Source: a candidate division WOR-1 bacterium RIFOXYB2_FULL_36_35 (GTDB lineage: Bacteria; Margulisbacteria; WOR-1; XYC2-FULL-46-14; XYC2-FULL-37-10). From it: 46,397 nt of DNA. The notes beneath the pieces were generated by a model. The model saw only the letters and a program-made list of their open reading frames with translations. It made no database searches and was not told the origin of the DNA. Made by a program: the position numbers and the translations under genes. The first letter of the stretch is position 1. Each line of letters opens with the position of its first letter. Shown piece after piece: positions 1-41,347 of this stretch. The DNA lies in the NCBI GenBank assembly GCA_001771505.1, contig MEUA01000028.1, positions 1 to 46,397 of the forward strand, given 5' to 3'.

Positions 1-1000
1 AACCGACAGGAAATGGAGATGGCACATACTATATTTCGTTTGGGTTGGCAAGATCGGTAAATAGTGTATATGCGACAGCAGGACTAAAGGATGTGGCGAT
101 AATAAATAATGTATCGAAGACTTCGGCAACAGTGCCATTTACAATAAAGCCTGAAATAACAAGCAGCATATCGCCAACAAATGGTTATGCAGGCAGTAAA
201 ATAAAAATATATGGAACAGGATTTGGCGCGACTAATGATACCGTAACGGTAATATTGAATGATGGGACGACAAGCGTAAGTACAACAGGGGTTGTAACAA
301 GAGTTAACGATGAGCCAGCATATGATGGATATGATCAGGTAGGAGCTACAGTTCCTGCAAGTTTATTAGCAGGCGTATATAAGGTTATAGTAGAAACCAA
401 TGAAGCTCAAAGCAATGATGATGAGACCTTTACTGTAGACGCAGCTCCCGGGGCACAAACACCGTCAGTGACAAAGATTGAAGTAAGAAAAGATGAGAAT
501 TCAGCTTATGTGACTACAAGTGAAGGATATCTAGGATATACGGTAAAGATGAGCGGAACAGGGTTTGAAGGGAACTATAATAATCAAGGCAAGGTAATGA
601 TAGATGGCGTAGAGATGCCGATATATAGTTGGAATGAACCGACAGGAAATGGAGATGGCACATACTATATTTCGTTTGGGTTGGCAAGATCGGTAAATAG
701 TGTATATGCGACAGCAGGACTAAAGGCTGTGGCGATAATAAATAATGTATCGAAGACTTCGGCAACAGTGCCATTTACGATAAAGCCTGAAATAACAAGC
801 AGCATATCGCCAACAAATGGTTATGCAGGCAGTAAAATAAAAATATATGGAACAGGATTTGGCGCGACTAATGATACCGTAACGGTAATATTGAATGATG
901 GGACGACAAGCGTAAGTACAACAGGGGTTGCAACAAGAGTTAACGATGAGCCAGCAATATTATATGATGGATATGATCAGGTAGAGACTACGGTTCCTGC
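1..1000 (+). repeat. Near-identical in-gene direct repeat (copies 1-358 and 637-1000, period 636 bp)
   Basis: Bases 1-358 recur at 637-1000 with only a handful of substitutions (for example A/C at 91 versus 727) and one 6-bp in-frame insertion in the second copy. The 636-bp period equals 212 codons, about two IPT domains. Copy one is cut by the window edge, so the array may extend upstream. Such high nucleotide identity points to recent duplication or gene conversion, or possibly an assembly-collapsed longer array. Confidence 0.92.
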
Positions 1001-3539: not shown

Positions 3540-3556
3540 AAGTAGGAGGAGAATAA

Positions 3557-6500
3557 ATGTTAAAAGAGTTATTTAAAAAAATTAATAAAACCGGGAGTAT
3601 AATTTTGTTTTTACTTCTTTTAATGATGGCTCTTTCTACACAAGCTTTGGCTACAGGTGTAAACATTCGTATGCTGGAACAGGTAAACGTTCCAAATGCC
3701 GGGGGGACAATTTCTGATGATCAGGGGATTCCTCTTCCTGTCGGTTCTGTTGTTCAGATAATACAGGTTGTCGGTTCAGTAGATCAGGCTGATATGAGCA
3801 AAGCTCATTTTGTAGGTGGGGATGATATCTGGATAGCTGATGTAACGGTGGGCTTGGGGACAGGAGCTCCCGGATCGCTATATATTCAAAACGGTTCTAT
3901 TAGTGAAAAGACTATATATTTAAGAGGATGGAATGCTACAAGTTTAGCTTCTGCCACTAAGTATGGAAATTCTGCAACAAAATCTGTCACGGGCCTTTCT
4001 CCTATTACATGGGATGTTCCAAGTTTCGCGACGGCAACTTCTATAACACCTTCTGAGACTTTAACATTTAATCCGTCAAGTCTTTATGCTGGAGATGAAG
4101 CTTCCGTCGTGGCGACAAATTCGGCGGGGACATTTACTTCGGCAACTACTTTTAATTTTGGTTCAGGGATTGCGGTAAGTAAGGGATCAAACACCACAAC
4201 TACTTATAATCTCTCTCTTGCGGTTCAGGCGTCGGCCGCTTCCGGAAGCAGGTCTATTTCTGCTTCAACTGGAGGGGCGGGAAACTTTACGATAAATTCT
4301 CCTTCTATTTCCTCCGTCTCTCCTCAACAAGGGACGCAGGGGACAGCAACAATAGCTACAATTACTGGCGTTGGGACTCATTTTAAAAATGGCAGTACGA
4401 CTGTTGTCTTTAACGGAGGAGGAATAACAGTTAATAGTGCAACTGTTAAATCTGCAACTCAAGTTGAAGTTTCAATAACTATCGATCCTGCGGCTTCTGC
4501 TACAACAAGGACTGTAACGGTTACAACTCCGATTGTAAATCTTGGGACAGAAAGCGTAACTTCTTCGACGGCTGGTTTTCAGGTTGTCTCTTCTTCAAGC
4601 AATGCTATCATCGATGACTTTGAAGGGATTTATGTCCCTGCGGATGGTTATTATTCTTATGAGGCGGCAGGCGATTCTTTACCTACTATGGAGTTGTCTA
4701 CCAAAACGTACCATGAAACGGCTACCTCTATGCATTTTGCTTATAAAGCGGCCTCTGATTCAAAAAATGCTTGGAGAGGGTTTGGCGGAATATTGACGAA
4801 TCTAAAAGATATAACTTCATACGACACTATTTCTTTCTGGATGAAAGGGGATGGCTCAACAAATACAGTAAAGATTCAATTAAAAGATGATGACGGAACA
4901 AATTGGGCGGCAACAGATGCAGCTGCTGTTTCAACGGCAGATACAGACTGGAAAGAGTATAAAGTTCCGATCTCATCAATAACAAAATCATTGAATCCTG
5001 GGGCTGACGGCTCACTTGAGAAAACAAAAATAGCCGAATACCAGTTTACATTTGTGGGGAAAAACGGATCATTAAATGACGGCGTTTATATAGATTATGT
5101 AACCCTTGAGAATGCGGCAGAGACTCCTGCTTTATCTGTGAACAAGACCACTCTTAACTTTACGGCTCAATATGGAGGAGTAAATCCCAATTCTCAAACA
5201 GTCTCTGTCTCTAATACAGGAGGAGGAACCCTCAGTTGGAGTACATCAGACCCGGGGAATTGGCTTTCTATCTCTCCGCTTAGCGGAACACTTGGAGCAG
5301 GAAATGGAGAGACACTTACATTTTCTGTCGATGTTACAGGTGTTGCGACAGGAGATTATTCATACTCTGCAATAATTAATTCGATTGATGGGGGATCATC
5401 AACTATCGTTGTAAATCTTAATGTTACAGAGCCTCATGCCCTTGCCCCAAAACTTTTATCCGCTGATCCCGCCTCCGCGACACAGGGGACAACTGTTTCT
5501 CTTATGACGATTGAAGCCCAAGATACTCAGTTTAGCGGAACACTAAGTGTTGATTTCGGCGAAGGGATTACACATGGCAATGTCACAGTTATTGATGATA
5601 CGACCTTGACGGTTGCGGATGTTGTACTTGCAGGCAGCGCCTCTGCCGGTTTGAAGCTTATAAAAGTTACTCAAGGTAGTTCAGTAATTACAGGTGAAAT
5701 ATTTACGGTTATAGAGACAACTTCATCGTTTGTTATTGACGATTTTGAAGGAGATCTTGTGGATCCTGCTAACGGTTATTACAGAGAGGCGGCTCTTAAA
5801 GATTATAAACCTACAAGTGAACGTACTTCTAAAGAGGCTTATGAAAAAGATTATTCTTTTAGCGTTGTCTATGGAAGCATAAGCGATCCTGCAAATGCCT
5901 GGAGGCTTGTAGGGGCTGTTTTAAATGATTTAAAGGATATATCAAGTTACAATGCTATATCTCTCAGAATTAAAGGGGATGGACAGCCTCATCAGTTTAA
6001 GTTCCAGTTAAAAGACAGAGACAGCGCTACAAGTGATGAGGGGGATAATTTTGCAAGTAATCCTATCGACATTAACCCTACAACAAACTGGCAGGAATAT
6101 ACTATACCTATAGCTAATATCGGCAGCCGTGTTAACGAAGGGAGTACCGATAACAGTAACGGGACTTTAGATAAGCAATTGATAAAAGAATACCAGTTGG
6201 TTTTTCAGGGAGAGAGCGGGACCAGTGGATTGCTTCTTGATTATGTGATTTTAAAAAATACATCTCAAATTGAAGATCCTGTTATTACTTCAATAGATCC
6301 TAATCATGGAATTTATGGCAGAGAGACAACCTTTACTCTTACGGGTTCAGGCCTTGGCAATGGCGGAGAGATTAAAATAGAGGGACAGGGGATAACCTCT
6401 ATATACAAATCTTCCGCGGATCAAGAGAGCAGAGTTTCTGCTTGGAGTATAAACAGCATAGCTTTTACAGTCCCCAGAATGGAAGTTGGAACTAAGACAA

Positions 6501-6868
6501 TAAGTGTTAAACGTACAGATGGAAAAGAGAGTAACACTATAACATTTAACGTTGTAGCTTCTGATGTGACCGGAGTTTCTGGTTCGTATAACTATCCCAA
6601 CCCGTTTAATCCTTTGGCAGGGGAGATTACGAAGATAGTCTTTGATCCGCAAGGGGCAACATCTGCTACAGCATACATTATGGATATGACTACAAGAATT
6701 GTAGGGAAACTTAGCTGGACAGATGATGGCTCGGGTCCTTCCGAAATTGAATGGAATGGCGTAAGCGCATTTTCAGAAAAATTGGGAGATGGGGTCTATT
6801 TGTATCGTGTAATTGATTCAAATAATAAATTGCTTGGTAAAGGGAAAATACTAATTATCAATAAATAA
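3557..6868 (+). CDS. Secreted multidomain protein: IPT/TIG, two DDFEG carbohydrate-binding-like domains, BACON-like and FlgD-like Ig domain
   Basis: 1,103 residues. A Sec signal peptide spans about residues 1-33 (basic start, leucine-rich core, A-L-A-T). A strong AGGAGG Shine-Dalgarno sits 8-12 bases before the ATG. IPT-like segments come first, then a CBM-like domain beginning IIDDFEG near residue 351. A BACON-like beta domain follows (about 525-625, 'TLNF' to 'GDYSYSAIINS'), then a second DDFEG domain near residue 726 and another IPT domain near 910. The last ~100 residues form a FlgD-type/T9SS-type Ig domain with the signature YPNPFNP. The end domain resembles those used for outer-surface sorting in Bacteroidetes-like diderms, but no sorting machinery is visible here. 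Likely cell-surface glycan binding; domain names rest on motif memory. Confidence 0.88.
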   Translation: MLKELFKKINKTGSIILFLLLLMMALSTQALATGVNIRMLEQVNVPNAGGTISDDQGIPLPVGSVVQIIQVVGSVDQADMSKAHFVGGDDIWIADVTVGLGTGAPGSLYIQNGSISEKTIYLRGWNATSLASATKYGNSATKSVTGLSPITWDVPSFATATSITPSETLTFNPSSLYAGDEASVVATNSAGTFTSATTFNFGSGIAVSKGSNTTTTYNLSLAVQASAASGSRSISASTGGAGNFTINSPSISSVSPQQGTQGTATIATITGVGTHFKNGSTTVVFNGGGITVNSATVKSATQVEVSITIDPAASATTRTVTVTTPIVNLGTESVTSSTAGFQVVSSSSNAIIDDFEGIYVPADGYYSYEAAGDSLPTMELSTKTYHETATSMHFAYKAASDSKNAWRGFGGILTNLKDITSYDTISFWMKGDGSTNTVKIQLKDDDGTNWAATDAAAVSTADTDWKEYKVPISSITKSLNPGADGSLEKTKIAEYQFTFVGKNGSLNDGVYIDYVTLENAAETPALSVNKTTLNFTAQYGGVNPNSQTVSVSNTGGGTLSWSTSDPGNWLSISPLSGTLGAGNGETLTFSVDVTGVATGDYSYSAIINSIDGGSSTIVVNLNVTEPHALAPKLLSADPASATQGTTVSLMTIEAQDTQFSGTLSVDFGEGITHGNVTVIDDTTLTVADVVLAGSASAGLKLIKVTQGSSVITGEIFTVIETTSSFVIDDFEGDLVDPANGYYREAALKDYKPTSERTSKEAYEKDYSFSVVYGSISDPANAWRLVGAVLNDLKDISSYNAISLRIKGDGQPHQFKFQLKDRDSATSDEGDNFASNPIDINPTTNWQEYTIPIANIGSRVNEGSTDNSNGTLDKQLIKEYQLVFQGESGTSGLLLDYVILKNTSQIEDPVITSIDPNHGIYGRETTFTLTGSGLGNGGEIKIEGQGITSIYKSSADQESRVSAWSINSIAFTVPRMEVGTKTISVKRTDGKESNTITFNVVASDVTGVSGSYNYPNPFNPLAGEITKIVFDPQGATSATAYIMDMTTRIVGKLSWTDDGSGPSEIEWNGVSAFSEKLGDGVYLYRVIDSNNKLLGKGKILIINK

Positions 6869-6927
6869 TGGAGAAAAGCAAGAAATTTATGTCCAGAATT
6901 TTCGATAATAAGTTAGGAGATGAAAAG

Positions 6928-8763
6928 ATGAGAAAGATCAAATTTTCAATTGCATGGATGGTAGTTTTTCTGTTGTGTTTGATCTCTTTGCCTGTTTTTG
7001 CGGCTCAGGACATGATAGTCGCAGATCCAATGTATATAGGTGTGGGGGCGAGACCCCTCGGAATGGGTAAAGCATATGTTGCAGTCGCAGAAGATGGCGA
7101 TACGGTTTTTGTAAATCCCGCAGGTCTTGGAAAAGTTCTTACGCCAAAATTGACTAGCATGTATACAAGCCTTTTGGGTGATGTAAATTATGTAGTTTTG
7201 GGAGGAGCTTACCCTCAGACCAAAAATAGCGCCATCGGAGTTGGGGCGATTATTGCTTCCTCTCCGGATATAATATTGTCAGATTCGAACGGAACAAAGC
7301 TTGGTTCAGGCACATGGGGATCCAGTCTCTTTTTCTTGTCTTATGGGATTGATCTTATAAATTCAAATATCCAGTTGGGAGGAAGCTTGAAATATTTTTC
7401 ACAGGGAGGGACTGGAGACTCATCAATTGAGAATGCAAATTCAACAGGAATAGGGTTTGATATTGGAGCTCTTTATGCTGTATCAGATAAACTCTCTTTG
7501 GGTGTTTCAGCTCAAAATCCTTTAGGGACGAAGCTGACTTCAGGAAATGGAATTGAAAATACGGTTCCATATTTAATTAAAGTCGGCGGCGCTTATAAAA
7601 CGAGCATGTATGATGATAGAAAACTTACTTTGGCTTGCGATGTTGACATAGTTGACAACAGGCCATTAACTTTGCATGTTGGAGCGGAATTGGGTCTTAC
7701 TCAAAATATTACAATAAGGGCGGGGTTGGACCAGAATCCGATTCCTAATTCCGAGATCCAAAATAACCCTACCCTTGGGATGGGATTATCTGTTAGTGGA
7801 ATGGAATTTAACTATGCTTATCATCCGTATGGTAATATAGCGGAAGATTCTACACACTATTTTTCTCTATCTTATGTTGGAGATAAATACATAGAAGAAG
7901 AGACCTTTGGAATTGTTATTTATGAGCCGAAAGATAAATCTATAATTTATGATGATAAAGTTGCGGTGTCAGGAAGCGCCGAAGGGTTTAAAACTGTTTC
8001 TGTCAACGGGATAACTGTTTCTGTAAACAATGATGGCACTTTTAATGCTAATGTTCCAATTGGAAATGTAGGCAAAAAATTAATTGAGGTTACGGCTGCC
8101 AAGGATGACGGGGAAAAATTATCTGAATCAATAAGGGTCTTAAGATTGGTTGGGTTTAAAGATGTACCACAAAGTTATTGGGCAAAACGGCCTATTGAAG
8201 GATCAAGTACTGTTGGTCTTGTTGAAGGCTATCCTGACGGGACATTTAAACCCGAGAGGACTTTAAGCAGGGCGGAACTTGCGACTCTTCTTGTTCGTGC
8301 AAGCGGGACGGAAGTTACAGAGCGTCCTCGAAGCAAAGTTTTTAAAGATGTAGATCCGAGTCATTGGGCGGCTCCTTATATAAAAGAAGCGATAGCAATG
8401 GGTTTGGTTCAAGGCTACCCTGACGGGAACTTTAGGCCAAACAATAAAATTTCAAAGGCCGAAGCGATAACCGTTTTGGCACGCTATGACAGACTCCCCC
8501 TGGAAAAAGTTGAACAAAAGCCTTTCAGTGATGTTGCTGTTGATAATTGGGCCGCTAAATATGTTCAAGCTGCAAAGAATGCTGGTGTTTTATCTTATGT
8601 AAAGAAGGGTTCTTTGGGAGTTAAACAAGATGTTACTCGTGCTGAAGCTATAGAGATGATGAGCAAGACCTCTATGGCGGGGGCCCTTATAAAAGAGTTG
8701 TTTTCCTGGGAGAAAGGCTTTAGATTGAAAAAAGAAAAGCCTATGATAAAGGCGAGTTTGTAA
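6928..8763 (+). CDS. PorV/UPF0164-like outer-membrane barrel with C-terminal SLH domains
   Basis: 611 residues from the ATG at 6928. This start is preferred over an in-frame ATG at 6868 because TAGGAGA lies 7 bases upstream and the product opens with a clean signal peptide (MRKIKFS, hydrophobic core, VFAAQ). Residues ~24-325 look like a PorV/UPF0164-type beta-barrel ('GVGARPLGMGKAYVAVAEDG', 'VFVNPAGLG'). An Ig-like linker covers ~327-405. Three S-layer homology repeats start near 409, 472 and 532 (F-K-D-V...W...G-Y-P-D-G-x-F-x-P). SLH domains usually bind cell-wall polymers, so the protein may tether the outer membrane to the wall. It follows two surface genes and may help export or anchor them. 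The short stretch 6868-6927 is probably leader rather than coding. Confidence 0.88.
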   Translation: MRKIKFSIAWMVVFLLCLISLPVFAAQDMIVADPMYIGVGARPLGMGKAYVAVAEDGDTVFVNPAGLGKVLTPKLTSMYTSLLGDVNYVVLGGAYPQTKNSAIGVGAIIASSPDIILSDSNGTKLGSGTWGSSLFFLSYGIDLINSNIQLGGSLKYFSQGGTGDSSIENANSTGIGFDIGALYAVSDKLSLGVSAQNPLGTKLTSGNGIENTVPYLIKVGGAYKTSMYDDRKLTLACDVDIVDNRPLTLHVGAELGLTQNITIRAGLDQNPIPNSEIQNNPTLGMGLSVSGMEFNYAYHPYGNIAEDSTHYFSLSYVGDKYIEEETFGIVIYEPKDKSIIYDDKVAVSGSAEGFKTVSVNGITVSVNNDGTFNANVPIGNVGKKLIEVTAAKDDGEKLSESIRVLRLVGFKDVPQSYWAKRPIEGSSTVGLVEGYPDGTFKPERTLSRAELATLLVRASGTEVTERPRSKVFKDVDPSHWAAPYIKEAIAMGLVQGYPDGNFRPNNKISKAEAITVLARYDRLPLEKVEQKPFSDVAVDNWAAKYVQAAKNAGVLSYVKKGSLGVKQDVTRAEAIEMMSKTSMAGALIKELFSWEKGFRLKKEKPMIKASL

Positions 8764-8778
8764 GGAGATGTATAAAAA

Positions 8779-9648
8779 ATGCCAGACATTGATAACGTAG
8801 GCAATAGTTTCTCTTTTAAAATGCCTATAGGTCCTCATAATTATAATAATGGGAATACTGAATTTATTCCTCCTGACTTAAAAGAAGTTGGAGAAGAATA
8901 TTTAGGACAGGTTTGTGGAGAAAAAAATCCAACTCCAAAACAATCGGAGAGGGCTGCTCATATAATTTTGGGGCAATATAGTTATTTGCCGCCTGTTTGG
9001 ATTGATGGTGAATTGCGATATTATGATGAATTAGCGCGAGAAGTTTGTGATGCTCTTTATGAAGAAGAGGCTTTTTCCATGGTTTCTGTTGAGGTTGACC
9101 AGCGGGGAGTTGTTGAGGTTAACCTTACAGCCCTGGTCTCTACTGATGAGCGCAAAATTTTGGAAAAAATTTATCTAGGAGAAGGGGTTAGATTAATTGA
9201 TTCTGATGGAGACAGTTACGCAGTTCCCCCTGAGCAATTGCGACAAACCTTACTTGAAAATACGAAAATTAATTTAATTGGGGGGGAGCCAGGCATAGGG
9301 GTTGAGAAATATTTAAATGACAAAGGTGAACTCTGTTTAAAAATTTCAGCTCCGGCGGCAGATGTTCCTCTTAACGGACAAAGAAGCTATCAATTTAGTT
9401 TGGAAATTAAACCTGAAAAGGAGACTGTTTCTAGAGAACAAACTTCAGTAAGACAAATAACCGATACAACTGGAAACACAATTAGTGTTCCTGTTTTTAC
9501 TGAGAAAGTTGAAGTTATAAGCTTGTTTGAGGGAAGGCTCTCTTTTATGGGGGAGGTTAAGGTCAATTATAAGCCTTATGCCCGTAAAGCAGTACGAGAG
9601 AGTGCAGCTCCGTCGCTTGGAAGATCTTTGCAGATTGAAAGAAATTAA
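8779..9648 (+). CDS. Hypothetical protein, no signal peptide
   Basis: 289 residues, 15 bp after the SLH gene, with AAGGAGATG ahead of the ATG. I recognise no family. The N-terminal third is mixed with aromatic residues (YNNGNTEF, 'GQYSYLPPVWIDGELRYYDE'). The rest alternates predicted strands and acidic stretches. The C-terminus is basic. There is no Sec signal, although the upstream genes all encode exported proteins. The short gaps to 8763 and 9665 suggest co-transcription with both neighbours. Confidence 0.75.
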   Translation: MPDIDNVGNSFSFKMPIGPHNYNNGNTEFIPPDLKEVGEEYLGQVCGEKNPTPKQSERAAHIILGQYSYLPPVWIDGELRYYDELAREVCDALYEEEAFSMVSVEVDQRGVVEVNLTALVSTDERKILEKIYLGEGVRLIDSDGDSYAVPPEQLRQTLLENTKINLIGGEPGIGVEKYLNDKGELCLKISAPAADVPLNGQRSYQFSLEIKPEKETVSREQTSVRQITDTTGNTISVPVFTEKVEVISLFEGRLSFMGEVKVNYKPYARKAVRESAAPSLGRSLQIERN

Positions 9649-9664
9649 ACGTTAGGAGTATATA

Positions 9665-12600
9665 ATGGTTAGTATAGGATTAAATCTTATAAGTTATTTT
9701 TCCGCATTATCTGCGACCCACTTAACTGCGTCAAATGATTCAACAAATGGTACAGATACGACTCTTCAAGAAGTTGATCCTGCTATTCTTCAAGCCCAAT
9801 ATGAAGTAGTTTTAAAAATAATTGATCTTATTGAATTAAAAGATCGAGTGTCAACTCTTGCCGACAGATTAGACAGGCTTGATCCCGGGTATTCTATTAG
9901 AAAAGGGATATCGCATAAATTAGATAGATTTTTTGTTGGAGACCAAAGGGTCTCTTTCTCTGAAAAAGATGATTTTGATTTTCAAGGTGAAGATAAGAAG
10001 AAAGTTTTTGATGCTTTAATAAGAGCGGGACTTATTACCCGTAAGGTTGTTAGTGGTAGACAGGGAAGACATTGTATCCTTAATTTTGAAGAGATATTTG
10101 TCAGTTTTGCAATTAAGAATATCGTTATAGATGGACAGGTTGTGTCAGACGAGAGAAAAGCCAAAATATTTACAAGCCTTTTAGCTCTCATAACAAAAAA
10201 ACTGGAACAATCTTTAGACGAAAGTTTGGATTTAAGAGGATTTATTTCTGATGCTGAATTTGGAATTTTTGGGGATAGAGTTAGGCCTGCCGTTGTTTTT
10301 GGGGCTTTATCTGACTATGTTGAAAAAAAGAGATTGTTGGATGCTAATAGTGGACATTATTATAATGTTTATGTTGTTAAAAAAGAGGCATTTAGGACTG
10401 TTGCCAGTGATTTTAATGCTTTTAAATCCGCGGTTAACATTCCTGGGATTACAGAAGATGCAGATCTTCTTGCAATATACAGAATACTCCAAACAGCTTA
10501 TGATAAAGAAAAGAGACTTGAAAGAGTAAAGGATAATTTAAGTGCGGCTGTTACAAAATCAGAAACTCCTTCTACCTCTTCAGGAGATATCATAACTCCT
10601 TGGCTCGCAGAAGTTGGTGAGCGTGCAGTTTATGGTACAGATAATTATCTGCAGCGATTAGATATTATAGCAAAAGTTAGGCGGGAAATAGGCGAAACCT
10701 ATGAACTTGACGGTAGAAGTTATGATGTTGAAACGTTGACTGATGCTACAAGTATTATTGCTTCGCATGAAAAAGAATTACTTGGCAAATTACAGGGAAA
10801 AACAAAGGAATTATTTGACACAGCTGCAGGATCAACTTATGCAAGGATAATGAGGGTTGAAAGAGATTTATCAAACGCTATTAATAATAAAAAAGAATCA
10901 GGCACTGTTGGTCTTGATACATCAAGGACAATGGAACTCCTTCCCGAGATGGTGAAACCTTCCGCAAAAAAACCTTTGAATGCTTTCTGGAGTTGGATGG
11001 CAACTCAAGGCGCCCGAGGTGGACTTACATTTGAAGTTCCTGTAGAGACGATTGGTTCTGAACGTGGCGCGGATTTGATGGCGACTGTTGCTGTAAAACC
11101 GTCGTTTTCCGGGAAGATCGGAGATAATTATCTTCTTCAGTTTGATCCTTATTTTCTGGGGCTGAAACAATACGGTTTTAATCTTCACGGATTGACAATA
11201 GATCCTGACGCTTCTTATCTACCTAAGGATTTTTCTCTTGGAGTTGACATCGTAAATAAGTTAAACGTCGTGAGGCAATCTTTTTCTACGATTGTTGATG
11301 GAAACTTTTTAGCTAATGGAAGATTATCTTTGGGAGACGCGGGGTTGTTGTACGGAATGAACGGTAGACTAAGTTATGAAAAAAACAGGACAGTGGCGCT
11401 TGGTGATGTTTATACAACTTCCGGCAGGTTTGCTTTTGGTTTCGATTTGGGTTTTTCTTCTAATATTTTCTCACTTATGATCTCTTTCAATGCTGTTTGG
11501 CAGACGGCCCCTGTTGTTTCTGCCAATGGGATGGAGACTTTTAGCAATGTTCTCGCCGGAGAGTTGCCTGTTTACAGAGGAATTGATGCCTCTTTAGTTG
11601 GGATACTTGATCTTTCTAGGTTGGGTAATTTTACTGTAAACAGTTATTTTACAGATATGCCAAGATCTGATGATACCGTCGCAGGGATATTTGGAATATA
11701 CAGACCGGAAAACTTTTCTTCATTATATGTGGCAGGTGGGTATACTTTAACTTCAGATAATATTTGGAAGCCGGGGATAAAAGTTGGCACAGGAGAAGTT
11801 GATCTTTTTGGGGTCTCTTCTTTGGGTTTTGTTGCCGGATATACTTTTGATAGATCCTTTGGAAATAAAGATTTTAATTTTAGAAATGGAACATTTACTG
11901 CTGGAGTAGTTGGTGGTTTTGGAGGGCGGCGTAGAGTAAGTGTTCGAGCATTAAGAGCGGCTCTTCGTTCTGAAAGAGAGGGGCGTATATCTAGATCTCA
12001 GCAAAGATTGGAAATCGGTAGAGCTAATGTTAGTCCTTTATCTACGAACCACCCATATTTGGAGGATATTGCCGACTTAGGCAAGTACGCAACTCCTCTT
12101 CCTTCAGAGGAATCTATTGCTCAGCCTATTAGTGGCGAAGTTCCGGAAGTTTCAATATTAGGCGGAAAGAAGATATATCTTAACGAAGAAATGTCAGATA
12201 AATTGCGAAGTGCGTTGATTGAGTTAAATAAGCAGACAGAATTTATAAAACAGGCTTTAATATCTTTAGGAGTTAACGACGAGTCTGTAAATAGAGTAGA
12301 GCGAATTGATTTGATTGTTCCTGCTGATGTGATAGCAGAATTGCCTGGGGAGATTGTTTTGGAAGCTGCTGATGCTGATGAAATTAGTAAGCTTATAGGT
12401 TTATGCGCGGTTGGGTTTATTGAAGAGGCTGTTGATGTTGATGGCTCTCAAAAGATAATATTTAAAGTGCAAGAGTTTTTTAATAAATTAAATAAAGAGA
12501 TAGAAGATAATAGGGTGGGACGCGCTCTGGTAGCTCTTATTAATGCGATCCATCTTATAGACCCTATATTGAGTGAAACCCTAAAAACAGAAAACCCTGA

Positions 12601-13000
12601 AATTGCGAGTTCAGATGTGATGAGTCGTGCAAAAATAGAGTATCTTTATAGCAGGCTTGATCTTTATGCTGAAGATGGTGTAAGTGTCGAATATATTTTG
12701 AAATGGCATGAAAACTTTAATCAAAAAGGAGCGTCTCTACCACTGGATGGTGTGTCTCAGGAAAGATCAGCTGTAACAGCAGTTCCTTCTCAAGAAGAAG
12801 GAGCCCCTGCTTTACAATCGCCAAGTGAACCAGCCAGGACTGATTTATCCTCTGGGACAGCTCCAGCATCAGAGCCTCAAATCTTTCCGACTCCTCAACC
12901 AGAGAGAACCGTTGAGGATCAGATTCCTCAAGAGCTTTTAAACGATGGTGATCCATTGCGTACTATGGAACAATTTATTTACGGAATAGAGGAAGAGTAA
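9665..13000 (+). CDS. Large hypothetical protein with central beta-barrel-like region
   Basis: 1,111 residues, unrecognised. It follows the previous gene by 16 bp with a TTAGGAGTA Shine-Dalgarno. Residues ~50-420 look helical with coiled-coil-like heptads. Residues ~440-760 switch to alternating hydrophobic/polar strands rich in G, F, Y and N, ending in 'FTAGVVGGFGG', as in an outer-membrane barrel or a beta-helix. After a basic linker (R-rich, ~760-790) comes another helical region and a P/S/E-rich tail. No N-terminal signal peptide is seen (it opens MVSIGLNLISYFSAL), which conflicts with a normal Sec/BAM-exported barrel. It may be an internal structural protein, or exported by a non-Sec route. 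Confidence 0.75.
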   Translation: MVSIGLNLISYFSALSATHLTASNDSTNGTDTTLQEVDPAILQAQYEVVLKIIDLIELKDRVSTLADRLDRLDPGYSIRKGISHKLDRFFVGDQRVSFSEKDDFDFQGEDKKKVFDALIRAGLITRKVVSGRQGRHCILNFEEIFVSFAIKNIVIDGQVVSDERKAKIFTSLLALITKKLEQSLDESLDLRGFISDAEFGIFGDRVRPAVVFGALSDYVEKKRLLDANSGHYYNVYVVKKEAFRTVASDFNAFKSAVNIPGITEDADLLAIYRILQTAYDKEKRLERVKDNLSAAVTKSETPSTSSGDIITPWLAEVGERAVYGTDNYLQRLDIIAKVRREIGETYELDGRSYDVETLTDATSIIASHEKELLGKLQGKTKELFDTAAGSTYARIMRVERDLSNAINNKKESGTVGLDTSRTMELLPEMVKPSAKKPLNAFWSWMATQGARGGLTFEVPVETIGSERGADLMATVAVKPSFSGKIGDNYLLQFDPYFLGLKQYGFNLHGLTIDPDASYLPKDFSLGVDIVNKLNVVRQSFSTIVDGNFLANGRLSLGDAGLLYGMNGRLSYEKNRTVALGDVYTTSGRFAFGFDLGFSSNIFSLMISFNAVWQTAPVVSANGMETFSNVLAGELPVYRGIDASLVGILDLSRLGNFTVNSYFTDMPRSDDTVAGIFGIYRPENFSSLYVAGGYTLTSDNIWKPGIKVGTGEVDLFGVSSLGFVAGYTFDRSFGNKDFNFRNGTFTAGVVGGFGGRRRVSVRALRAALRSEREGRISRSQQRLEIGRANVSPLSTNHPYLEDIADLGKYATPLPSEESIAQPISGEVPEVSILGGKKIYLNEEMSDKLRSALIELNKQTEFIKQALISLGVNDESVNRVERIDLIVPADVIAELPGEIVLEAADADEISKLIGLCAVGFIEEAVDVDGSQKIIFKVQEFFNKLNKEIEDNRVGRALVALINAIHLIDPILSETLKTENPEIASSDVMSRAKIEYLYSRLDLYAEDGVSVEYILKWHENFNQKGASLPLDGVSQERSAVTAVPSQEEGAPALQSPSEPARTDLSSGTAPASEPQIFPTPQPERTVEDQIPQELLNDGDPLRTMEQFIYGIEEE

Positions 13001-13006
13001 TTTTAT

Positions 13007-14704
13007 ATGACATCCTGTTCTGAAATATCTTTTAATAATTTAACATCGATAACTACTTCGCCTCAATGCAAAAAAGATGTTGAGCCTACCGTTGAAAAGG
13101 AGCTTGAATATGTTAGAGTTCTTATCTATCTTACAACCCTTCTTGAGGAGGCAAAAGAGCTTTATAATTCAGCCAAGTCTTCGGATCCTGAGGATAAAAT
13201 AAGAAGGGAATTGCAGGTAATAATTTATCCGTATCTTGCAAGAGGTGGAATTTCAGATATTAATGCACTTGTTAATAAAATTATAAGTAAACTGAAAGTT
13301 GAACTTACCTCTGATAGAGAGACTAAACTTAGGGATGATTTAACAAGAGCGCTTAGCCTAGAGAGTGTTTCTAACGTTTTATCCAGGACTCCTGCTAAGG
13401 ATGAAAATATTCAGGCTCATCTTATTGCCATGACGAGGGATATTTCAAGATATGTGGCTTATGGGTTTGAAAATTATGAAGGATTAATTGGTTTTTCTAG
13501 AAAAATAGGAGATTTAAAAACAGATAGCACCCTTCCTGATTTTGTTCGTAATTCAGCAGCTCATGGATATAAAGGAATGGTTAAGGCTTTGGAGAGTGCC
13601 ATCTCTGATCTTGAATCTAAATTGCCTGATGGTCTTCGCCCAAAAACTCCTAACCAGATAAGCTCTCTTTCAAATGGCGGATTGACTTCAAGCGAGCTTG
13701 AATGTTTAAAGGCGTGGCTTGAAGATTTTAATTGTCTTCAGATTCAAACCCCTGAACCCCAATTTCCTAATCGGGGATTTACTATACCTTATGATCTTAA
13801 TGTCAGACTGATAGAGTCAATTACACTTCCTATGCAGACTCTTGCAGAAGTCCTTTCAGATGAAGCTGGTGGTGATTGGATAAATTTAAAAGAGGTCGTT
13901 CTTAATGAAAAGAGACCTGTTTTAACCTTTTTATCACGGTTTATTCCATCTGAACCCCGTTTAGGAGATCGGGGTGAATATATTGAGAATAGAGATGGAA
14001 ATAAATATTTTCAGATAGGGGCATTCTTTAATAATGTCAAATTTGTATCAGGACATCCTGATACTCATGGCTATACTTACTCAAAAGAGAGTATAGCCAT
14101 ACTTAAACTTTTGTGGTTGCTGGCGGCAGTAGCTGATTTGTCAAGTAGGAGTTCACAAGCGGACGGATCGTCTATTCTAATTGATCAAGTCAAGGGCAGA
14201 GCTAGCGCTTTTGTTGCGAGTGATCTTTTAATGATTGATCAGGTTAATAATATTATTAGATTTTTAGATGGCGTAGAAGAGCGTCGACTTAAATATTATT
14301 GGCATATTTTAAAAGAGGCTGTTAAGCAATCAGATGAAACACACCCTCAGGGAGGGGATATAATTAAAGATATTCCTAAGATGATCAACGATAAATTTAT
14401 GGAGAGAGTTCTAAATCTTCAACAAAAACGGTCTACTGAGAGTTATTCTCCGCCAATAAGCGGGGTTGCTTCTCCCATTGTAGCGTTTATTAATGTTTCT
14501 GCTGATTCTGTAACTATGTTTGTTCGGTTTAGATGTGCTGGAATATGCAACGATATTTTTACTCAAGCTATAGATTCATTTAATGATTCGAATATCGGTG
14601 GCATGTTTATAATATATCCATATTCTGAGCATTTGCCTGATGAAAAAATAGAAGAGTTAAAGGAAGCTATTTCCAATTCTTCTATTAGAGGCTTCTCTGA
14701 ATAA
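13007..14704 (+). CDS. Hypothetical helical protein carrying two palindromic-element insertions
   Basis: 565 residues, 6 bp after the preceding stop. A GAGGAAG at the end of the upstream gene could serve as Shine-Dalgarno. Mostly predicted helical; no family recognised and no signal peptide. Two 20-bp palindromic elements lie inside the gene at 13757-13776 and 13955-13974. They encode the peptides EPQFPNRG and EPRLGDRGE without breaking the frame. The second has TGAA on both sides, consistent with a target duplication. The protein therefore seems to tolerate, or be under weak constraint at, these surface-like loops. Confidence 0.72.
   Translation: MTSCSEISFNNLTSITTSPQCKKDVEPTVEKELEYVRVLIYLTTLLEEAKELYNSAKSSDPEDKIRRELQVIIYPYLARGGISDINALVNKIISKLKVELTSDRETKLRDDLTRALSLESVSNVLSRTPAKDENIQAHLIAMTRDISRYVAYGFENYEGLIGFSRKIGDLKTDSTLPDFVRNSAAHGYKGMVKALESAISDLESKLPDGLRPKTPNQISSLSNGGLTSSELECLKAWLEDFNCLQIQTPEPQFPNRGFTIPYDLNVRLIESITLPMQTLAEVLSDEAGGDWINLKEVVLNEKRPVLTFLSRFIPSEPRLGDRGEYIENRDGNKYFQIGAFFNNVKFVSGHPDTHGYTYSKESIAILKLLWLLAAVADLSSRSSQADGSSILIDQVKGRASAFVASDLLMIDQVNNIIRFLDGVEERRLKYYWHILKEAVKQSDETHPQGGDIIKDIPKMINDKFMERVLNLQQKRSTESYSPPISGVASPIVAFINVSADSVTMFVRFRCAGICNDIFTQAIDSFNDSNIGGMFIIYPYSEHLPDEKIEELKEAISNSSIRGFSE
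13757..13776 (-). repeat. 20-bp palindromic element inside a coding region (reverse orientation)
   Basis: CCCCAATTTCCTAATCGGGG, the reverse complement of a one-base variant of the 20-bp family unit. The left flank is TGAA and the right flank is ATTT, so no clean target duplication remains. It is read in the only reverse-strand phase that encodes P-R/Q-F-P-N-R-G without a stop in this context. Confidence 0.75.
13955..13974 (+). repeat. 20-bp palindromic element inside a coding region, TGAA target duplication
   Basis: CCCCGTTTAGGAGATCGGGG flanked directly by TGAA on both sides (13951-13954 and 13975-13978). Element plus duplication is 24 bp, eight codons, inserting PRLGDRGE in frame between P-S-E and Y. 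Confidence 0.85.
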
Positions 14705-14708
14705 TATA

Positions 14709-14882
14709 GGGACTGTTGCAAAATGGTCATTCCCGTGAAAACGGGAATCTATTTCTCAGAAAACAACCCCGATTATTATAATCGTGGTTAAGATGGATCT
14801 CCGCTTTCCTGCCTGCCGTCAGGCAGGCGACAGGCACGGCGCGGGGATGGCAAATTGCAAAAACTGTTATTACCCAACAAGC
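14709..14882 (+). repeat. REP/BIME-like composite repeat, copy A (inverted relative to 16803-16920)
   Basis: Starts GGGACTGTTGCAAAATGG, then hairpin ATTCCCGTGAAAACGGGAAT, then a second REP-like hairpin (CCGCTTTC ... GGGGATGGC), and ends CCCAACAAGCC. The reverse complement of 16803-16920 matches it throughout, except that this copy carries two extra insertions: the 21-bp palindromic element at 14767 and a GCCTGCC-GTCA-GGCAGGC palindrome at 14811-14828. With copy B it brackets the gene at 14936. Confidence 0.88.
14767..14787 (+). repeat. 21-bp palindromic element inserted in REP copy A
   Basis: Begins CCCCGATTATTA and ends TAATCGTGG (21 bp), flanked by ACAA on the left and TTAA on the right. 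The paralogous repeat at 16803-16920 reads ACAAGATGG across the same point, so it is an empty site. The net extra length is 25 bp, that is 21 plus a 4-bp duplication, now imperfect. Confidence 0.88.
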
Positions 14883-14903
14883 CTATAAGAGCAGTAAAAA
14901 ATG

Positions 14904-14929
14904 AAATTCCACTTTGTTTTATCCGATGT
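14904..14929 (+). promoter_or_regulatory. Conserved AAATTT-N14-CGATAT-like box before the start codon
   Basis: AAATTC at 14904-14909 and CGATGT at 14924-14929 are spaced 14 bp apart, six bases before the preferred ATG. The same pair of boxes occurs at 16769, 28319 and 37962. It could be a promoter giving a nearly leaderless mRNA, or an operator. This is the most diverged copy. Confidence 0.4.
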
Positions 14930-14935
14930 AGATAT

Positions 14936-16726
14936 ATGGATGCAATACGAATTAAGCTCCGATGTCCGGTCCTCCCTTCTCCTCAAAGGATAGATTTTTT
15001 AAATCAGCTTAAATCTGCTAAAACTATGTTTTTGGCGAGATCACCTAATGCTTTTTCATTTGTGCAACAGATTTATACTAATAAAGCGTTTGCTGGGTGG
15101 AAAGAAGAGGTCTCTGGTTTTTTAATGAAAGTTGCCCGTGCGTTTTCGAGAATTGCGTATCTTGATGAAGCAAATAGCATAATAAAATTTTGTAATACTT
15201 TAGAGCCTGGAGGGACAAGAAAGAGGATCTATCATGATTTTCAAATAAGCAATGAATTTGATCGTCTTTTAATGTACGGAGATACCGATAATGCAATAAA
15301 ATTACTCAGGAGGGCTTTGTTATCTCCCTCTCTTACAGAAGATGATAAAACCTCCATTATAGAATTTGCATCTTATACGCTTGTTTATTTTACTTATAGA
15401 ACAATAGCTTTTTCCGATTCATCTATAGAGAAAATAACAGAACCATGGAAAGGGCTTTTTTCTCTTAAATTGAGTGACCCTCAAATGTTTGGTCTTTCTA
15501 AAGAAGTGGTCAGGGTCGCTACTGCGATAGCATTAGATCTTTCTCCTTTGGAAGAAAAAGAGAAATGGAAAGAATTGTTGGAAGCTGCCGGAGAAGATAA
15601 AAGAAGGGTTGCAGAGGGCCTTGTAAATACAAATTATCTTAGAGCTGTGATGCCTGAGTCTGTTGCAAAGAAGCGGGGAGATGTAATTTATAGACTTGTA
15701 GAGACCCTTTATAATATGGAAACTGATGAAAGAAAAAGAGCTGTTTTTTTGATGGAGATGATATCTGTTGCAAATCTTACCGCGGATATTGGAAATGGTT
15801 TTATTGCCGCTAAATTGTATTTAGCTATAGGATTAAAAATGCGTGAAGAGGTTGAACGGGGGGAGTTGGAAAATGAAAAATTAATTAATTTGTGCCGTAA
15901 AATATACTCTAAAGCCGGTGATTTTATGATGATAGGTGAAATAGATATGGCGATTCCTCTTTGTGGAGTTCTTTTTAATTTACATGATGAGCTGTTGGGT
16001 GAACAAGTGTTTGGTAAAATCAAAACTTTTTTTGAAAAAAAGATGATTGAACCAGCGTTAAAGTTGCTAACTTTTGGGTATGAAACAAATTTATTTTCAA
16101 GGACTCGCAGATATAGATTTATTTCAATACTGGCAAAAAATATATCTGATTCTGAAATTAGAGAAAGAGTAAAAAAGTTTTTGATCGATAATAACAGTAA
16201 GAGTAATTTTTTTGTGATTCTCTCTTCGTTGGTTTTTTATTTTGAGCAGAGGTTTAATGAAATTATAGAGTTAGTTGATGCCATGCCATCTCCTGATCTA
16301 TTGGTTCGACAATTTAGAGCAGACGCTTTAAGAAAATCTTTTTGTCGTGAAGAGGCAATAGAGGAATCATCCTGTATTATTGATGAGGCGCAAAAAGGGA
16401 CAGATGATGATATCAAGCTAAGGGCTTTTGTTTGTAGGGCTTATTCTTATTATCATGCGCCATGGATTGAGGGCCATCTTCAAAAAGCTCTTGAAGATTT
16501 TAAAGTTGCGGAAGATCTTGTTGAAAATTTTGGTTTAGGATCTGTTCAACGTATCTTATTAGGCAAGGCGCTTGTTTATGTTGATCTAGGAGATTATGAC
16601 TCCGCGGAACAAATTGTTTGTAGTATACCCTACTCTTTGCATGATGATAAAACTAACAGAATAAGGGCTTTGATCAAAGAGATAAGAGGACTAGAAGGAT
16701 GTCACACTGAACTTGTCAAGGGATGA
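14936..16726 (+). CDS. Hypothetical helical-repeat (TPR-like) protein
   Basis: 596 residues from ATG 14936. The frame is open back to a TTG at 14855, but that start lies inside the REP repeat. The preferred ATG matches the start position of the similarly preceded gene at 28351. The protein is almost entirely alpha-helical, with TPR/solenoid-like pairs ('GDTDNAIKLLRRALLSP', 'KALEDFKVAEDLVENFGLG', 'GDYDSAEQIV'). It has no signal peptide and I cannot assign a function. Inverted REP-like repeats bracket it (14709-14882 and 16803-16920), which would allow inversion or mobilisation of the unit. Confidence 0.7.
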   Translation: MDAIRIKLRCPVLPSPQRIDFLNQLKSAKTMFLARSPNAFSFVQQIYTNKAFAGWKEEVSGFLMKVARAFSRIAYLDEANSIIKFCNTLEPGGTRKRIYHDFQISNEFDRLLMYGDTDNAIKLLRRALLSPSLTEDDKTSIIEFASYTLVYFTYRTIAFSDSSIEKITEPWKGLFSLKLSDPQMFGLSKEVVRVATAIALDLSPLEEKEKWKELLEAAGEDKRRVAEGLVNTNYLRAVMPESVAKKRGDVIYRLVETLYNMETDERKRAVFLMEMISVANLTADIGNGFIAAKLYLAIGLKMREEVERGELENEKLINLCRKIYSKAGDFMMIGEIDMAIPLCGVLFNLHDELLGEQVFGKIKTFFEKKMIEPALKLLTFGYETNLFSRTRRYRFISILAKNISDSEIRERVKKFLIDNNSKSNFFVILSSLVFYFEQRFNEIIELVDAMPSPDLLVRQFRADALRKSFCREEAIEESSCIIDEAQKGTDDDIKLRAFVCRAYSYYHAPWIEGHLQKALEDFKVAEDLVENFGLGSVQRILLGKALVYVDLGDYDSAEQIVCSIPYSLHDDKTNRIRALIKEIRGLEGCHTELVKG

Positions 16727-16768
16727 TTTTAACCCTGATTAATTTATATAAGAGCAATAAAAACATCG

Positions 16769-16799
16769 AAATTTACCTTCATTTTTAGCGATATATATG
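16769..16799 (+). promoter_or_regulatory. Orphan leader: AAATTT-N14-CGATAT followed by ATG-TAG
   Basis: AAATTT (16769-16774) and CGATAT (16789-16794) precede an ATG at 16797 that is followed at once by TAG. The upstream bases AGAGCAATAAAAA resemble those before the genes at 14936 and 28351. It looks like the leader of a third family member whose coding part was replaced by REP copy B. Confidence 0.5.
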
Positions 16800-16802
16800 T
16801 AG

Positions 16803-16920
16803 GGCTTGTTGGGTAATGACAGTTTTTGCAATTTGTCATCCCAGCGAAAGCGGGGATCCATCTTGTTTTATGAGAAATAGATTCCCGTTTTCACGGGAAT
16901 GACCATTATGCAACAGACCC
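16803..16920 (-). repeat. REP/BIME-like composite repeat, copy B
   Basis: In reverse complement it starts GGGTCTGTTGCATAATGG, continues ATTCCCGTGAAAACGGGAAT, then CCCCGCTTTCGCTGGGATGAC-like hairpin arms, and ends CCCAACAAGCC. It is the inverted partner of copy A and the uninterrupted (empty-site) version. The 290 bp between the genes at 14936 and 17017 hold this repeat, the orphan leader and the ATGACTCATGACC repeats. Confidence 0.88.
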
Positions 16921-16943
16921 ATGTAGTAAAGAGAGAATATACA

Positions 16944-16977
16944 ATGACTCATGACCCAAGACCCATGACTCATGACC
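16944..16977 (+). repeat. Short-word repeat, ATGACTCATGACC twice
   Basis: The 13-mer ATGACTCATGACC occurs at 16944-16956 and 16965-16977, separated by CAAGACCC-type filler. The words resemble each other internally (CATGACC, AGACCC, ATGACT). This is intergenic, about 40 bp before the next start codon. Confidence 0.8.
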
Positions 16978-17016
16978 AATATTAAATAATCTAAAAGTAA
17001 CGGGGAGAAATGAGAA

Positions 17017-18384
17017 ATGTCTGATATTTTAAGGCTTGGTTTGAATCCCATATTTTCTTTTTCTAGTTCTTCTGATAAAGATAAAAAAGAGAAACCTGAA
17101 ACTAAACAATGTATAGTAAATGGCTTTGTTGGAACTGTTTTTGGTTATTATGGTAACCAGCTTTCTTACGATGTCAGTAGTGATGGCTGGCAGCCTGGTG
17201 ATGTCGTGGGGGAAGTAGATAAAAGTACTACCACAGAAGAGAATCCCTCATTGATTGCCCTTCGCGTTCCTGTTTACCTTGATCTCAAGCTTAGTGAGAA
17301 TGTTGGTTTATCATTTGGGGGGACAGGGAATCTGGACAACCTTTTTTCTGCAAATAATTTGACTTCCAATCCGTTTAATTTAACAGAAGCTTTATTTAGT
17401 GGGAATCTTAATGTTTCTAATGATTATATTGCAAGCCTTTCTTTGGGAGGATTTTCAGGCTTATCTTATTTTGGCTTTTATGAGTTTTGGGATGGCAGCC
17501 TGCCGACTGATGATTATGAAAAATTAAGATGGGGCGGGCGACTTCATAATAATTTTGATTTTGGACATATTTTCGGAGTTGATCCATCAAAGTACGATCT
17601 GTCCCTTAATATTGGCTGGGAAGGTTCTTATCTTTCACAGCCTACTCAAAAGGAATTTAATTCACTTGCGGTTGCCGATGTTGCAGGGAGAGTAGGTATA
17701 TTGGAAGTAGAAGCAAACTTTAAGTGGAGGTATTATTCAGGATTTTCAATTCGTACCGTTTTATCTGGCAATGAAAATTCCTCAGAGGGAAATGATGATT
17801 CCAGTTGTTGGGTAAATATATGTGATGGAGAGACAGGTGTTGGCTGCTGGGAAAATACTTGCACGGGAGAAGACGGGCCACCAAGCTATGGAAATGACAA
17901 TGGTGATATTGGATCAGGAATTGGAGATGGGATTGCTCAAACAGTTGAAGAAAATTTGGATTATTCGGGAAATATTTTCGAGGTTCGGGGCGGGATTAAG
18001 ATCTCTCCCGCCTTTGGTGAGACTTCAAACTTTAGTTTTATGATTATGGGGGGGCTCTCTTTTTATAAAGAAGAGAAGGGGTGGTTTGTGGGGGGAGAAG
18101 CAGAGATCCCTTTATGCCATGCACCCCGATTAGAAAATCAGGGTGAATACAGGTTGGGGGTTGGGTATTCTTTTGTAAATAATTATGCTTCAATTTTTGC
18201 TGATTCAAAAAATGATAGCCATAATCTGAAGTTGTCTTTAGATGCCGGGAAAAATCAATTAACTCTTATTGGCCGACTTTCAACTTCAAAAGATGAAGGG
18301 AAACCTCCTTATTTTGTCGGAATGACTTTAACTCACTATTTTGAGGGAAGTTTTTTTGATGTGATGCAAAGTTTATTTCATTAA
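17017..18384 (+). CDS. Hypothetical beta-rich (barrel-like) protein with palindromic insertion
   Basis: 455 residues; CGGGGAG lies ahead of the ATG. The body is made of alternating strands with many G, F, Y, N and S ('YFGFYEFWDG', 'WRYYSGFSIRTVLSG') and ends 'PYFVGMTLTHYFEGSFFDVMQSLFH', like a 14-16-strand outer-membrane barrel. It opens MSDILRLGLNPIFSFSSSSDKDKKE, with no clear signal peptide. A Cys-rich acidic loop (~residues 265-290, CWVNICDGETGVGCWENTC) interrupts the strands. A 20-bp palindromic element (18124-18143) encodes PRLENQGE in frame. Family not recognised. Confidence 0.75.
   Translation: MSDILRLGLNPIFSFSSSSDKDKKEKPETKQCIVNGFVGTVFGYYGNQLSYDVSSDGWQPGDVVGEVDKSTTTEENPSLIALRVPVYLDLKLSENVGLSFGGTGNLDNLFSANNLTSNPFNLTEALFSGNLNVSNDYIASLSLGGFSGLSYFGFYEFWDGSLPTDDYEKLRWGGRLHNNFDFGHIFGVDPSKYDLSLNIGWEGSYLSQPTQKEFNSLAVADVAGRVGILEVEANFKWRYYSGFSIRTVLSGNENSSEGNDDSSCWVNICDGETGVGCWENTCTGEDGPPSYGNDNGDIGSGIGDGIAQTVEENLDYSGNIFEVRGGIKISPAFGETSNFSFMIMGGLSFYKEEKGWFVGGEAEIPLCHAPRLENQGEYRLGVGYSFVNNYASIFADSKNDSHNLKLSLDAGKNQLTLIGRLSTSKDEGKPPYFVGMTLTHYFEGSFFDVMQSLFH
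18124..18143 (+). repeat. 20-bp palindromic element inside a coding region
   Basis: CCCCGATTAGAAAATCAGGG, flanked by TGCA on the left and TGAA on the right (3 of 4 identical). It encodes P-R-L-E-N-Q-G in the same phase as the copy at 13955. Confidence 0.82.
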
Positions 18385-36696: not shown

Positions 36697-36791
36697 CTCC
36701 GATTATGAACCCCGATTAGGAAATCGGGGTTCATAGACGAACAGAATTCTAGCAGAGTGTTGGAACTTTCCCCAGGTATGAATAATCGGGG
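36697..36791 (+). repeat. 71-bp family palindromic element with a nested 20-bp copy
   Basis: Starts CTCCGATTAT and ends ATAATCGGGG, flanked by TGAG and TGAA. Total length is 95 bp. Removing 24 bp at the nested unit (36710-36729) leaves 71 bp, the same length as the copy at 41277, with matching ends (TCATA, AGGTATG). The interior is diverged. The 274 bp upstream of the sigma gene hold this element and the leuD promoter. Confidence 0.8.
36710..36729 (+). repeat. Nested 20-bp palindromic element
   Basis: CCCCGATTAGGAAATCGGGG, a perfect 8-bp-arm palindrome, extended by ATGAA/TTCAT outside. The flanks are TGAA and TTCA, complementary rather than direct, so a simple target duplication is not shown here. 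Confidence 0.82.
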
Positions 36792-37839: not shown

Positions 37840-37860
37840 CCCCGATTATCCCAATCGGGG
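37840..37860 (+). repeat. 21-bp palindromic element after the sigma gene (TTAA duplication)
   Basis: CCCCGATT-ATCCC-AATCGGGG, flanked by TTAA on both sides (37836-37839, 37861-37864). With the flanks it makes a 14-bp-arm hairpin, 18 bp after the sigma stop, which could also act as a weak terminator. Confidence 0.9.
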
Positions 37861-38771: not shown

Positions 38772-38867
38772 CCCCGATTATTCATACATCGAGTAATGTT
38801 TGACAATTTGTTAGTTATTGATTCTGGCGTGAACCCCGATTATCCCAATCGGGGTGAATAATCGGGG
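38772..38867 (-). repeat. 71-bp palindromic element with nested 21-bp copy (96 bp total)
   Basis: TTAA flanks both sides (38768-38771, 38868-38871). Inside, a 21-bp unit (38834-38854) sits between direct TGAA copies (38830-38833, 38855-38858). Removing unit plus one TGAA (25 bp) restores a 71-bp sequence matching the reverse complement of 41277-41347 with about three mismatches. Confidence 0.93.
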
Positions 38868-41276: not shown

Positions 41277-41347
41277 CCCCGATTATTCACCTCAGAATCA
41301 ATAACTAACAAATTGTCAAACATTACTCGAGGTATGAATAATCGGGG
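41277..41347 (+). repeat. 71-bp palindromic element, TTAA duplication, inserted in a duplicated leu promoter
   Basis: Ends CCCCGATTATTCA and TGAATAATCGGGG; TTAA at 41273-41276 and 41348-41351. The leuC and leuD promoters read CTTAACTATA without the element, giving two empty sites. The 399 bp from 41044 to 41442 hold the hairpin, the chimeric fragment, this element and two divergent promoters. Confidence 0.93.

Follow-up and report, generated by a model that had tools for sequence, protein, structure and literature searches.

Why do short palindromes lie inside protein-coding genes of the candidate division WOR-1 bacterium RIFOXYB2_FULL_36_35, and why are those in genes of one length only? The question was raised by a stretch of 46,397 nucleotides (the window; contig C28 of the assembly), in which a sequence-only reading had noted three palindromic units within coding regions, at 13757, 13955 and 18124, all of 20 bp, and had placed a 21-bp form only between genes. 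The three units were confirmed to be 20 bp long, two of them located in the ORF at 13007–14704 and one in the ORF at 17017–18384. The source genome (1.95 Mb in 67 contigs, 96% complete) is the only one that represents its genus. Units were catalogued in 760 kb fetched around units, which is about 39% of the genome and a unit-centred, not a random, choice. Genes were called by our own dicodon gene caller.

The ORF at 13007–14704 (forward strand) encodes a 565-aa protein without a Pfam match. Its first unit (13757–13776, reverse strand) contributes the peptide EPQFPNRGF and has TGAA on the left and ATTT on the right. The 4-bp duplication that had been claimed for the units is not visible at this copy, where it was lost or was never visible. 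The second unit (13955–13974; 13951–13978 with its flanks, forward strand) lies between TGAA (13951–13954) and TGAA (13975–13978) and encodes EPRLGDRGE. In the ORF at 17017–18384 (forward strand, 455 aa), the unit at 18124–18143 (18120–18147 with its flanks, forward strand) is flanked by TGCA (18120–18123) and TGAA (18144–18147) and encodes APRLENQGE. The orthologue in the sister genus lacks exactly eight residues here and has the empty site AATGAATACAGG. Gene order of window 1–18384 is kept in the sister genus (G002, contig C27, 140000–159999). A 300-bp direct repeat, 99% identical, occupies 1–300 and 637–936 inside the first large ORF, where a repeat domain was recently duplicated.

The other units in the window are intergenic. 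A 20-bp unit at 36710–36729 is joined to the body of a 71-bp MITE (36730–36791; the whole at 36710–36791, forward strand), and a 21-bp unit at 37840–37860 (reverse strand) has a TTAA/TTAA duplication. The element at 38772–38867 (forward strand) is a 96-bp composite, in which a 71-bp-type MITE with outer TTAA/TTAA carries a nested 21-bp unit (38834–38854). A 71-bp MITE of the same family, also bounded by TTAA/TTAA, lies at 41277–41347 (forward strand). One copy of a second MITE family (GGGATCCATCTTGTTTT... / ATTCCCGTTTTCACGGGAAT) harbours a further 21-bp unit (14767–14787). Two copies of this family, at about 14717–14866 and 16803–16922, flank the ORF at 14855–16726, which had no match in the sister-genus stretch read.

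The catalogue comprised 268 palindromes in three main loop classes: AGGA (20 bp), AGGAT (21 bp) and ATGAT/ATCAT (21 bp). The 20-bp unit is CCCCGATT-AGGA-AATCGGGG, and the 21-bp unit has the loop AGGAT or ATGAT. Both forms have the terminal inverted repeats CCCCGATTA...TAATCGGGG, as expected of a MITE, and share the outer ends CCCCGATTA with the 71-bp MITEs. The latter have 13-bp terminal inverted repeats (CCCCGATTATTCA) and duplications of TTAA, TTTA, TAAA or TTCA. In the composites of 95–97 bp, an internal TTCA/TGAA of a 71-bp element has received a 20- or 21-bp unit. The 71–97-bp relatives are within the size range of MITEs (about 70–300 bp), and the smallest units, at 20–21 bp, are below it. 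As single-stranded DNA the unit forms a perfect hairpin with an 8–9-bp stem (−8 kcal/mol as DNA). Such folding may be relevant to movement, but it proves nothing. Repeated occurrences of TTAATTTCTGGTTT or TTGATTTCTGGTTT next to 21-bp units in the source genome (G000), e.g. at C17:79533, C17:93720 and C40:3015, suggest a further MITE family.

The 760 kb contained 104 units of 20 bp (CCCCGATTAGGAAATCGGGG) and 145 of 21 bp. Genome-wide, the oriented 20-bp consensus had 110 matches at up to three mismatches, 53 of them exact, and the reversed-pattern control had none; the 21-bp consensus gave 86 and 99 matches on the two strands, again against a control of 0. Among 57 whole genomes searched (the source and relatives from family to phylum level), each relative had 0–3 background matches. 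A chance origin of the matches was excluded, because the controls were empty against the high copy number in the genome and the relatives remained at background. The 71-bp relative was present in at least 40 copies in the source genome and in none of the eight other genomes of the order. A GTDB-wide scan of 84,980 species detected only seven scattered loci in unrelated taxa, all single matches except for two contigs of one Neisseriaceae MAG. A scan of a viral collection for the family gave no matches.

Insertion was examined at the flanks, in nested copies and at orthologous sites. Perfect 4-bp direct repeats flanked 60 of 108 units of 20 bp and 61 of 148 units of 21 bp (shuffled means, 40 and 27), and there was no excess of 5-bp repeats over shuffled flanks. 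The duplication is of exactly 4 bp. The duplicated targets were TTAA, TTCA, TGAA, TTTA and TAAA. The second MITE family exists in a 37-bp empty version (15 copies) and a 62-bp version (10 copies) of the same stretch, filled by the 21-bp form with a gain of 25 bp. The window contains one of each, empty at 16853–16889 (forward strand) and filled at 14740. The ends of the 71-bp MITE likewise exist empty and filled.

Two genes gave precise empty sites in the sister genus. In the gene for TatD, the sister genome reads GATGAATATCCTGATTTG (core GATGAATATCC) and the source genome GATGAA[CCCCGATTTCCTAATCGGGG]TGAATATCCTGATTTG (core GATGAA[20]TGAATATCC). In the gene at 17017, the sister reads AATGAATACAGGTTGGGG (with the core given above) and the source CATGCA[CCCCGATTAGAAAATCAGGG]TGAATACAGGTTGGGG (core CATGCA[20]TGAATACAGG). 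Where the sister has a single TGAA, the source has TGAA-[20 bp]-TGAA in TatD and TGCA...TGAA in 17017. The proteins are 76% (TatD) and 66% (17017) identical to their orthologues, and both alignments showed an exact eight-residue gap, as predicted from a net gain of 24 bp. The TatD peptide was absent from all 23 relatives aligned. Against a 62%-identical relative, a DUF2229 protein whose gene carries a 95-bp composite had a net gap of about 32–33 residues. The same alignment had been proposed for the protein at 13007; its nearest relative (28–34% identity) lacked both peptides but was too distant for an exact placement. When the DegP-like and Dus hosts were compared with PDB sequences, the inserts lay beyond the aligned part or at its margin. 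Together, the flanks, the nested copies and the empty sites showed that the 20- and 21-bp palindromes entered their sites whole, duplicating 4 bp of target DNA.

An alternative is that the 20-bp units are immobile, each being what remains of a longer MITE (71 or 95 bp) after loss of its middle. The common outer ends CCCCGATTA would fit such an origin, as would the many 20-bp units that sit within 71-bp MITEs. These nested units, however, have their own TTCA/TTCA duplication within the MITEs. The free units have one loop in common, AGGA (81 copies), an agreement that could not come from independent collapses, and the TatD and 17017 sites differ from the sister by a clean 24 bp around a single TGAA, with no MITE remnant. 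We regard this origin as unlikely, although it cannot be set aside entirely.

The two lengths behaved differently in genes. Deep inside ORFs were 27 of the 104 units of 20 bp (26%) and none of the 145 units of 21 bp (Fisher p = 6e-12). The 21-bp form was not strictly intergenic, as had been supposed from the window (14767, 37840 and 38834): six copies touch ORF ends, supplying the first or last codons. Since a 21-bp unit would break the ORF and so hide the gene, coding potential was also scored to the left and right of each unit, whether or not the frame stayed open across it. Coding sequence was found on both sides of 21 of 103 units of 20 bp, all in intact ORFs, and of 3 of 140 units of 21 bp (p = 3e-6). 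None of the 21 split its gene through a stop-bearing phase; in the absence of selection, and with all phases equally likely, a third of them should have done so (p = 2e-4).

Each insertion lengthens its target by the element plus the 4-bp duplication: 24 bp (8 codons) for a 20-bp unit, 99 bp (33 codons) for a 95-bp composite and 25 bp for a 21-bp unit. For all complete outer elements inside genes (65, 95 and 107 bp), the length plus 4 was divisible by 3. No composite of 96 or 97 bp was found inside a gene (0 of 13, against 7 of 37 for 95 bp), a difference that is not significant alone (p = 0.17). Inside intact genes only frame-keeping forms were observed, in stop-free phases.

The 27 deep units were spread over varied, unrelated hosts, as is the case for the in-frame insertions of Rickettsia palindromic elements (RPEs). 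Hosts with Pfam matches included a histidine kinase, TatD, an antiporter subunit, a DUF362 protein, a heptosyltransferase-like protein, a trypsin-PDZ protease, TPR proteins and others. AlphaFold modelled the TatD host with a mean pLDDT of 94.1; the sole segment below 50 is residues 13–20, the insert, which lies in the loop that follows the first strand.

Could the peptides be useful modules, such as a binding motif or a linker, that selection favours? They are alike across many hosts (EPRLGNRGE or EPRFPNRGE), but this likeness follows from the DNA. The hosts are unrelated, both orientations and several phases are used, and the TatD insert is predicted to be disordered. Copies in genes also had no fewer mismatches than those outside (means 0.91 and 0.50). 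We therefore consider a favoured module very improbable.

The TGAA-flanked forward unit had been read as open in only one phase, and this was confirmed, the phase being T|GAA. The 17 free units deep in genes did share a single codon phase, usually NNT|GAA, with peptides of the two types above, and both forward copies in the window use it (PRLGDRGE and PRLENQGE). Further open phases (NPDFLIG, TPIRKSG) occurred in other genes, mostly with the unit inside a longer element. The agreement of 17 of 17 would also be expected if insertion were aimed at in-frame T|GAA sites in genes, with no later filter. Of 5114 occurrences of TGAA in genes, however, 3948 are in the phase T|GAA, more than in any other, so that the bias is partly one of target supply (about 57% expected); what remains was inferred to be tolerance of a hydrophilic peptide. 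Moreover, the majority of units are outside genes, and no target preference can explain why genes contain elements of 20, 65, 95 and 107 bp but none of 21, 96 or 97 bp. Aimed insertion is accordingly hard to sustain. The least credible proposal, that these are ordinary hairpins (terminators or REP-like RNA signals) fallen into genes by chance, draws on the stable stem and the intergenic majority but is contradicted by the 4-bp duplications, the precise empty sites, the nesting in MITEs, the sister genomes without units and the lack of any Rfam match in the window, and no conserved units were seen at orthologous intergenic sites in the stretches of relatives read.

We interpreted the palindromes as a lineage-specific, non-autonomous, MITE-like selfish family, subject after insertion to a filter of length and stop codons, and we give this a probability of about 0.87. 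Tolerance in proteins through length and phase had been suggested from the window alone, and it was upheld: neither homologues carrying the same peptides without the element nor 21-bp units in frame inside genes as often as 20-bp units were found. Insertion would be blind to genes. Purifying selection would then purge insertions that shift the frame or bring in a stop, and tolerate the hydrophilic, loop-like peptide. We also infer that the units move, or formerly moved, in trans by a transposase recognizing the roughly 9-bp end CCCCGATTA. This putative enzyme would make cuts staggered by 4 bp at sites like TTAA, and may have been lost or may lie outside the families tested.

TTAA targets and CCC ends are suggestive of IS1380/piggyBac-like transposases. 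PF13701 (IS1380) and PF01609, the only two transposase families searched, were absent from the genome. A search for an autonomous parent among stretches of 1.0–2.3 kb bounded by the terminal inverted repeats gave ordinary genes only, and two such stretches of about 2.3 kb had no homology beyond the terminal MITE. The lack of a mobilizing enzyme counts against our interpretation, as do perfect duplications in only 60/108 and 61/148 units.

A further point against it is that a transposase complex of the standard, two-ended kind would have very little DNA to work on in a 20-bp unit. Single-strand transposition of the IS200/IS605 type leaves no target duplication, and was disfavoured here because a 4-bp duplication is present. 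We propose, tentatively and at somewhat less than even odds, that the 20-bp palindrome makes up an entire mobile element on its own, which has been copied into numerous new sites with a 4-bp duplication and may be smaller than any other transposing element known. DNA this short could move, for instance, as a hairpin or as an intermediate resembling an oligonucleotide, which a DDE-type enzyme would join; being one base shorter than the 21-bp form, the unit would have gained access to protein-coding genes. Current mobility was not shown, and no priority is claimed for 'smallest', the literature search having covered open-access papers only.

Like RPEs and the palindromic elements of Wolbachia, these are selfish palindromes found between genes and in frame in unrelated genes, where they add a peptide (PMC2229807, PMC10969869). 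RPEs, on the other hand, are 105–146 bp long (PMC2229807), a size not met by the 20-bp unit; here the longer in-gene relatives are 65–107 bp. The present units also differ in adding only eight residues, in their clear 4-bp duplication and in having a 21-bp sibling as a frameshifting control. We did not file the family as RPE, the size being unmet and homology to RPE sequences not having been compared. The Correia elements of Neisseria (107 and 155 bp) similarly have an open form fused in genes and a stop-bearing form almost only between genes (PMC2229807). Their siblings are long and differ by stop codons; those described here differ by one base of length.

MITEs are given as 70–300 bp with terminal inverted repeats of 15–30 bp (PMC3733652). 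Our family resembles bacterial MITEs in its terminal inverted repeats, short target duplication, lack of coding capacity and high copy number. It departs from them in a smallest unit of 20–21 bp, with little beyond two 8–9-bp ends, and in having no parent IS found, so the MITE criteria are met except for size and an identified parent. REP sequences mobilized by RAYT are palindromes of 20–40 bp, in high copy number and with some in genes (PMC3733652), and are similar to our units in these respects. Our units, however, lack a GTAG/CGTC tag at one end, have TTAA, TTCA, TGAA, TTTA or TAAA as flanks and show a 4-bp duplication. With the tag missing, the family was not filed as REP.

These findings extend protein-invading palindromes past Rickettsia and Wolbachia and to a far smaller unit, and raise the question of how DNA of 20 bp can transpose at all. 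The family is a recurrent source of new eight-residue loops in enzymes. The sibling pair that differs by one base is a natural experiment on the filtering of insertions in proteins, in which a gain of 24 bp is tolerated and a gain of 25 bp is not.
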